A stretch of DNA of 34,337 nucleotides from Gammaproteobacteria bacterium. Its GTDB lineage: Bacteria; Pseudomonadota; Gammaproteobacteria; Thiohalospirales; Thiohalospiraceae. The notes beneath the pieces were generated by a model. That model had not been told where the DNA came from. It was given only the letters and a program-made list of their open reading frames with translations, and ran no database searches. Position 1 is the first letter of the stretch. Every line of letters begins with the position of its first letter. The stretch covers positions 1-34,337 of the forward strand of contig JAJRUX010000122.1 in NCBI GenBank assembly GCA_024277575.1, read 5' to 3'. Below, one piece after another: positions 29,725 through 32,630 of the stretch. The position numbers and the translations under genes were made by a program.

Positions 29725-30210
29725 TCAGATTACGCTGTATCGGCGTCGAATGTGGCGAAGTACCAGAAAGACAGCGGGCCACGCCAGCATGCTACTGATT
29801 GCAGGTATCCAGTAGAGAAATCCGGCAGGGCGGCCACTGACACCCAGCACCCATGCTCCGATGACCCGGAACAGGGAGATAAAAATAAGGACGATAATGG
29901 CCTGTTGCCATATCGGGTAGTTGCGAATTCGCTGGTGTAACAACAGCACCAGATAGGCAACAACAGCGAGTCCCAAAGCCTGCTGTCCAAGTAAAGTTCC
30001 GGTAGCGGCATCCTGAAACAGGCCGGCCAGCCAGCCGGTTCCTACTCCTACCCGGTGCGGAAGTGCAATGATCCAGTAGATCAGTGCCAATGCTACCCAG
30101 TCGGGACGCAGCGGTGCCAACATCGTTGGCAGTGGAAACAGGGCAAGGGCCAGCGCAGCAACGAAGGTGGCGATAATGACAAACCAGCTTTGAGGGTGAG
30201 AAGGGATCAT
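29725..30210 (-). CDS. mreD: Rod shape-determining protein MreD
   Basis: A 161-residue integral membrane protein with about five hydrophobic helices and little else, as is usual for MreD. The conserved region LRPDWVALALIYWIIALPHRVGVG in pieces (RPDWVALALIYWI, PHRVGVGTGWLAGLFQDA) and the LLGQQALGLAVVAYL helix support the call. MreD joins MreC and RodA/PBP2 in the elongasome. It overlaps the mreC stop by four bases. Confidence 0.92.
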   Translation of the reverse strand: MIPSHPQSWFVIIATFVAALALALFPLPTMLAPLRPDWVALALIYWIIALPHRVGVGTGWLAGLFQDAATGTLLGQQALGLAVVAYLVLLLHQRIRNYPIWQQAIIVLIFISLFRVIGAWVLGVSGRPAGFLYWIPAISSMLAWPAVFLVLRHIRRRYSVI

Positions 30211-31103
30211 TGGCTCTGTTCTGTTGCTGTTTGCGGATCTGATGGGGAGTCATGGGGTGGCACATCCAGTGGGGTTCCCTGTTCCGGACTGGTCCAGACC
30301 AGAAGCACTTCGCGGATTCCATCCAGATGGGCTGTTGGCGTTGCCTCTACCCAGGCATACGGCCTGGAGGGCTCATTCTGGATCCGGGTAATTGTGGCAA
30401 CGGGGTGTCCTGGCGGGAAACGGCCACCCAGTCCGGAAGTGACAAGGACATCACCTGTCCTGATATCGGCGTTGTTAGGAATAAATGGCAGATCCAGGCG
30501 GTTTGATGCCCCTGTTCCCATTGCTATGGCACGCAGGCCGTTGCGATTGACCTGTACGGGTGTCGCGTGGCTGGGATCTGTGATCAGCAAGGCGGTACTG
30601 GAGAATGGACCGGTGTGAATGATCTGCCCCATAACCCCATTGGCATCGAGCAGTGGTTGGCCCAGAAAGACGTTGTCTCTGGTGCCTTTGTTGATCACAA
30701 TCTGGCGACTGAACGGATCAAGATCAACTGCTACGATCTCCGCCACCTGAGTCTCCTCTACCGTTTCCCGTGAAGAGTGCAGCAGTTTGCGCAACCGTCT
30801 GTTTTCTGCTTCAAGGGTAACCAGCCGCTGCAGCTGGGCATTGAGCAGGGTTTGCCGGGTGCGCAGCTCCTCTACCTCTTTGAGCAGTGTGGCTCGCGAT
30901 GAGAGATTTTCCGAGGCCGACCGCAGTGGTGCGGTGGAGAGATCCACCAATGTCTGCAGCGGGTAGATCACCAGGGAGAGGGTGCTGCGGATGGTGTCGA
31001 GGTAGTGCCAGCGATGATCCATCGTCATGATAACGATGGAAAGCAACATAAAAAATATCAACCGTGTGGTGGTGGATGGCCCCCGGGCGAATAACGTTTT
31101 TAT
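30207..31103 (-). CDS. mreC: Rod shape-determining protein MreC, apparent AUA start
   Basis: MreC scaffolds PBP2 and RodA in the periplasm. A transmembrane segment (RLIFFMLLSIVIMTMD) is followed by a coiled coil (about residues 70-105, LLKEVEELRTRQTLLNAQLQ) and a beta-rich MreC domain with INKGTRDNVFLGQPLLDANG and TSGLGGRFPPG. Scanning for ATG, GTG or TTG gives a start at 31061 (TTG), with no ribosome site and a missing N-terminus. Fourteen more in-frame codons upstream spell ..KTLFARGPSTTTR, the usual MreC beginning, and the codon before them is ATA (31101-31103), six bases after a perfect AGGAGG (31110-31115). I therefore place the start at ATA, giving 298 residues. A stop codon lies in frame further upstream. 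Confidence 0.85.
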   Translation of the reverse strand: MKTLFARGPSTTTRLIFFMLLSIVIMTMDHRWHYLDTIRSTLSLVIYPLQTLVDLSTAPLRSASENLSSRATLLKEVEELRTRQTLLNAQLQRLVTLEAENRRLRKLLHSSRETVEETQVAEIVAVDLDPFSRQIVINKGTRDNVFLGQPLLDANGVMGQIIHTGPFSSTALLITDPSHATPVQVNRNGLRAIAMGTGASNRLDLPFIPNNADIRTGDVLVTSGLGGRFPPGHPVATITRIQNEPSRPYAWVEATPTAHLDGIREVLLVWTSPEQGTPLDVPPHDSPSDPQTATEQSQ

Positions 31104-31126
31104 TTCAAGCCTCCTGGATATGCTTT

Positions 31127-31167
31127 ATGGCAGCCAGAAGCAACTTGCTTTCTGATTCCGCTGCCAT
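31127..31167 (-). promoter_or_regulatory. Stem-loop in mreB-mreC spacer
   Basis: ATGGCAGC (31127-31134) pairs perfectly with GCTGCCAT (31160-31167), and CAGAAGCAA with TTGCTTTCTG inside it. No U-run follows on the minus strand, so it is not a standard terminator. Lying between mreB and the mreC ribosome site, it could stabilise the mreB mRNA 3' end or limit readthrough into mreCD. Confidence 0.5.

Positions 31168-31229: not shown

Positions 31230-32630
<1,401 letters not shown>

Follow-up and report, generated by a model that had tools for sequence, protein, structure and literature searches.

The cell-shape gene mreC appears to begin at an AUH codon over most of the Gammaproteobacteria sampled

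To our knowledge, very few bacterial genes keep an AUH start codon (i.e. AUA, AUC or AUU). The window analysed here, a stretch of 34,337 nucleotides from gammaproteobacterial contig JAJRUX010000122.1 (assembly GCA_024277575.1), contains an mreC gene whose reading frame holds no ATG, GTG or TTG between the in-frame TAA at 31127-31125 and codon 15, and thus raises the question of where its translation begins.

The mreC start in the window and its congeners

The gene was assigned to MreC by profile TIGR00219, with a score of 193 bits against a cut-off of 92.75, and the order mreB-mreC-mreD corresponds to that of mreBCD (Table 1). On the minus strand, the start region was shown to read TAAAGCATATCCAGGAGGCTTGAA-ATA-AAAACGTTATTC, with CTTGAA as the spacer between AGGAGG (31115-31110) and ATA (31103-31101), AAA ACG TTA TTC as the codons that follow and TGA at 30209-30207 as the stop. 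The sequence-only reading had proposed that mreC begins at ATA (31101-31103), six bases after AGGAGG (31110-31115), coordinates which proved exact on the minus strand. It had also described the TTG at 31061, which is the first canonical codon of the frame, as the only such start available and devoid of a ribosome site, consistent with the predicted Shine-Dalgarno:anti-Shine-Dalgarno energies of –1.5 kcal/mol at this TTG versus –10.3 kcal/mol at ATA. The duplex at ATA ranks 14th strongest among the 149 AUH starts identified in this study.

Table 1. Features of the mreC locus, in positions of the window
Feature	Position	Strand	Description
mreD	29725..30210	–	ATG overlaps the mreC stop; 3' operon gene, used as control; from the list of open reading frames
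mreC coding sequence	30207..31103	–	298 codons from AUA plus stop; from translation, TIGR00219 and E. coli alignment
TTG codon 15	31059..31061	–	Sole nearby canonical in-frame start; rejected as main start
mreC start codon ATA	31101..31103	–	Aligned codon is ATA, ATC or ATT in 149/226 non-redundant orthologues, with in-frame stops just 5'
Possible 20-codon leader ORF (MAAESESKLLLAAIKHIQEA)	31105..31167	–	TGA ends 1 nt before ATA; contains AGGAGG
Shine-Dalgarno AGGAGG	31110..31115	–	6 nt from ATA; from sequence and predicted duplex energy
In-frame TAA	31125..31127	–	8 codons 5' of ATA; precludes a canonical start further 5'
mreB	31230..32282	–	ATG start; 5' operon gene, used as control; from the list of open reading frames

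ATA occupies codon 1 in each of the six congeners whose mreC is complete (the window included), with an AGGAG site before it. The five others (L002 to L006), which derive from separate assemblies and share 73-91% protein identity, exhibit AGGAG and ATA in matching register, and the search for an ATG at the aligned codon of close relatives, suggested by the sequence-only reading as a check, thus returned none. Codons 2-14 of the congeners displayed a pN/pS of 0.28, compared with 0.39 for codons 26-100, while the value for codons 2-25 was 0.25. As judged from these ratios, the segment that would be lost with a start at TTG15 is under purifying selection as coding sequence, in agreement with the earlier claim that such a start drops a conserved N-terminus.

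The same boundary was observed in the wider alignment of mreC, where in-frame stops are frequent 5' of codon 1 and absent from codon 1 onward, and where amino-acid information rises from 0.35-0.94 bits at positions –2 and –1 to 3.2-3.8 bits at codons 1-2. F5 is present in all 174 rows with ATN at codon 1, and R14 in 154 of these. The window MreC aligns to E. coli MreC (7eft) starting at residue 2, the E. coli gene beginning ATG AAG CCA ATT TTT; a nucleotide search of E. coli genomes with the window mreC gave no match. Together, the Shine-Dalgarno site, the upstream stop, the ATA of the congeners and the orthologues described below strongly support ATA at 31103-31101 as codon 1 of the window mreC.

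A possible leader ORF directly precedes this codon and has an ATG and a GAGG site of its own. It is found with equal length and place in three close species only (L001 to L003) and was rejected as a general feature of mreC; its pN/pS is 0.54. TGA-(A/G)-ATA is retained in all six congeners, and translation of the leader ORF may be coupled to that of mreC.

Start codons of mreC over the Gammaproteobacteria

Relatives were anchored by protein alignment, after which the codon at position 1 was read. The survey drew on 80 named contigs plus some 150 additional genomes from the class, which yielded 226 mreC orthologues upon removal of redundancy. Codon 1 was ATC in 72, ATT in 41 and ATA in 36 of these (149 ATH in total), ATG in 25 and GTG or TTG in seven, while the remainder mostly have ATG, GTG or TTG further 5', or ATH one to three codons 5'. 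The upstream in-frame stop of ATH-starting genes lies at a median distance of eight codons, and 121 of the 149 contain no canonical start from this stop to codon 4. At the same loci, a canonical start was within reach in 116 of 116 mreB and 89 of 89 mreD genes, compared with only 34 of 122 mreC genes; the effect is thus confined to mreC within its operon and is not created by the start-finding method.

Named carriers of AUH include Thiocapsa roseopersicina DSM 217, Thiobaca trueperi DSM 13587, Ca. Thiodiazotropha, Lamellibrachia endosymbionts and one Methylophaga MAG, and finished genomes of other families also read ATA, ATC or ATT at codon 1. The pattern spans many families of the class, exceptions being the enteric-like lineages, in which (as in E. 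coli) mreC has ATG, and some others; Acinetobacter and Legionella records carry annotated GTG starts. Since approximately one quarter to one third of the orthologues start at ATG, at GTG/TTG or at a canonical codon further 5', an AUH start is not indispensable. On these counts, AUH appears to be the usual mreC start over most of the Gammaproteobacteria sampled, and what had been taken for a rarity of one gene is instead the common state. Few loci from other classes of the phylum were readable, and in these a canonical codon lies ahead of the membrane helix; this sample is small and poorly aligned, and several loci yielding antisense or mreB frames were left out of it.

Some orthologues depart from these categories. 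GTT occupies codon 1 in three, one of which has ATC directly before it; L067 and L219 combine GTT with Shine-Dalgarno energies of –10 to –11.5 kcal/mol and no canonical codon 5', making GUU starts possible in both. Four Competibacter-like orthologues (L086, L088, L090 and L207) lack AUH at codon 1 and have a GTG or TTG nine codons 5', which extends the N-terminus.

All 25 genomes of a Pseudomonas-like genus (5.5-7.2 Mb) carry ATH at mreC codon 1, usually with a stop four codons 5'. One of these genomes (L331) encodes an MreC with 100% identity to the P. aeruginosa MreC structure 6ZLV across 174 residues, and the residues Pro114, Phe115, Arg175, Glu188 and Arg190 named in PMC8137920 all match it at an offset of 16, indicating that the published numbering starts at codon 17; the total length is two residues off the 330 given in that paper, which leaves the offset unaffected. 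Codon 17 of P. aeruginosa mreC is a GTG within the hydrophobic membrane helix. Correspondingly, the mreC annotation in P. aeruginosa record CP123788.1 begins at base 267, the ATC being located exactly 48 bases before this, at base 219. Since both the record and the published numbering begin at the internal GTG, the ATC start was missed in each, and the N-terminal cytoplasmic segment of MreC (the first 16 residues) is missing from the record. PMC8137920 itself remarks that the cytoplasmic part and membrane helix of P. aeruginosa MreC fall within only 14 residues.

Third-base changes and Shine-Dalgarno strength

Codon 1 was left out when building the tree, on which its third base was found to have switched at least 50 times within the set A, C and T, and nine times towards or away from G. 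Eight fourfold sites within codons 3-14, when pooled, displayed 191 changes without G and 173 involving G, the deficit of G changes at codon 1 being significant (Fisher p 1.7e-6). ATA accounts for 36 of 149 ATH codons at position 1 versus 277 of 2437 internal Ile codons of the same genes, i.e. about twice the share (p 2e-5). In most of these genes the upstream stops leave no room for an amino-acid constraint, and selection against an efficient start, by which AUG would be kept out of codon 1, is therefore the natural reading of these changes.

The median Shine-Dalgarno energy was –6.7 kcal/mol for ATH-starting compared with –2.5 for ATG-starting mreC, and a GGAG, GAGG or AGGA core was present in 104 of 149 versus 4 of 25 genes, nearly all ATH cores being positioned 5-10 nt away; ATG-starting orthologues, including that of E. 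coli, mostly lack such a site. This trade-off between site and start codon is large in raw counts, but comprises four to nine contrasts on the tree and is not significant after tree correction; it is thus suggestive, and would agree with an initiation rate conserved at a moderate level.

A proposed limit on MreC supply and its alternatives

The AUH start and the avoidance of AUG suggest that MreC supply is deliberately held down. A good Shine-Dalgarno site would bring the ribosome onto the mreC start, where the third base of AUH, being mismatched with fMet-tRNA and disfavoured by IF3, would slow initiation; selection would exclude AUG, keeping MreC scarce relative to MreB of the same operon. 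MreC is a bitopic scaffold, an excess of which disturbs the elongasome. We consider it probable that mreC is translated from a conserved AUH start and throttled in this manner. The comparisons show where the codon lies, its conservation, the avoidance of G at its third base, the lack of other starts and the restriction of the effect to mreC within the operon, and we infer fMet-tRNA initiation at AUH in vivo, a low yield, a role for IF3 and dosage as the selected trait. An excess of MreC shortens and widens E. coli cells, in which the balance between MreC and MreD matters (PMC7793260). Such shape defects upon overexpression, along with the conserved absence of AUG despite many changes of the third base, make the low MreC:MreB ratio suggested by the sequence-only reading plausible. 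In E. coli, MreC has been estimated at roughly double the amount of MreD and of PBP2-RodA (PMC7793260) and is therefore not in every case the scarcest component. Net mreC yield may be moderate, as a strong Shine-Dalgarno site partly offsets a weak codon.

Other readings of the ATH codon were weighed against this proposal. The window derives from a draft genome of 221 contigs, in which an ATA could be a sequencing or assembly error for ATG; this is refuted, as congeners from separate assemblies also read ATA after AGGAG and finished genomes of other families read ATA, ATC or ATT, leaving practically no probability for such an error. A true start at TTG15 (GTG17 in P. aeruginosa), with a non-coding AUH segment, would provide the canonical in-frame codon that annotation pipelines choose, and both the published numbering and the deposited annotation of P. 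aeruginosa begin at codon 17. However, codons 2-14 are conserved as protein and correspond by homology to the N-terminus of E. coli MreC as read from the ATG of that gene, TTG15 lacks a Shine-Dalgarno site, a start there would cut the membrane helix, and the downstream canonical codon sits at differing places from species to species, which renders this start highly improbable. We give equally little credence to the codon being an internal Ile of a longer protein begun 5', with its A/C/T variation reflecting amino-acid constraint. A third base that is H and not G is indeed the pattern of Ile codons, and some orthologues have GTG, TTG or ATG starts further 5', but the frame is closed by a stop without an intervening canonical start in 121 of 149 genes, protein conservation 5' of codon 1 is slight, ATA exceeds internal Ile usage, and a Shine-Dalgarno core lies 5-10 nt 5'.

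A more serious contender, albeit an unlikely one, is that AUH is used and was selected for regulation, through IF3 or ribosome state or through coupling to the leader ORF, rather than for a constant low dose. Repression by IF3 is known for such starts (PMC5472188), an AUA start in S. aureus depends on the medium (PMC13009471), and the 20-codon leader ORF ends 1 nt before ATA in L001 to L003. Conversely, this leader is present in three close species only, an Rfam search of the mreC start region returned no known RNA family, and the comparative results obtained here do not discriminate regulation from constant throttling. A specific form, in which the AUH codon of mreC acts as an IF3-sensed control that ties supply of the elongasome scaffold to translation state (IF3:30S ratio, growth rate), is regarded as rather doubtful.

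Comparison with known non-canonical starts places throttled initiation of mreC in context. The known AUH starts of infC, pcnB, cvfC1 and ccpN are weak, as is the GTC start of sigR, and several of these are subject to IF3. Like mreC, infC, which encodes IF3, has a conserved AUH start (AUU, AUC or AUA) after a strong Shine-Dalgarno site; mreC shares with it a conserved non-NTG start, a Shine-Dalgarno site at proper spacing and the lack of a nearby canonical start. Unlike mreC, infC is autoregulated by its own product, whereas MreC is a cell-shape protein without a known link to initiation. The infC gene of the window genome (L266, contig C65) reads AAAGGAGTAAAATA-ATC-GCTGCT, with an AUC (or AUA) start, and those of close relatives are alike. 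E. coli pcnB is likewise a chromosomal gene held low by an AUU start (Binns and Masters 2002, in the account given where it is cited by PMC9410913 and PMC13009471); there it is described for E. coli, whereas in mreC, a different gene, the start persists across a large part of a class. AUU starts in E. coli are limited to infC and pcnB (PMC9410913). In Streptomyces, the GTC start of sigR is repressed by IF3 and sets stoichiometry with a partner (PMC5472188), as is proposed for mreC within its operon, and GTT occurs in two or three mreC orthologues; sigR differs in its GTC codon, in encoding a stress sigma factor and in its demonstrated IF3 dependence. Staphylococcus cvfC1 (AUU) and ccpN (AUA) also combine a conserved AUH start with a strong Shine-Dalgarno site, at about 10% of AUG yield for such S. 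aureus starts, but belong to Firmicutes, are conserved among staphylococci and were experimentally mapped (PMC13009471).

A literature search of papers available without subscription revealed none that connects mreC with a non-canonical start. If true, the use of AUH by a core cell-shape gene across a class would exceed in breadth every case known to us other than infC, and mreC would be a clear-cut natural instance of selection against AUG. In many records, the N-terminus of MreC is probably misassigned, and for P. aeruginosa MreC, structural work has used an annotation without the first 16 residues. If the codon were IF3-sensed, translation capacity would feed into cell width or elongation throughout the Gammaproteobacteria, Pseudomonas among them. 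With an AUH start in mreC, the setting of MreB, MreC and MreD doses would become directly testable by a one-base change.
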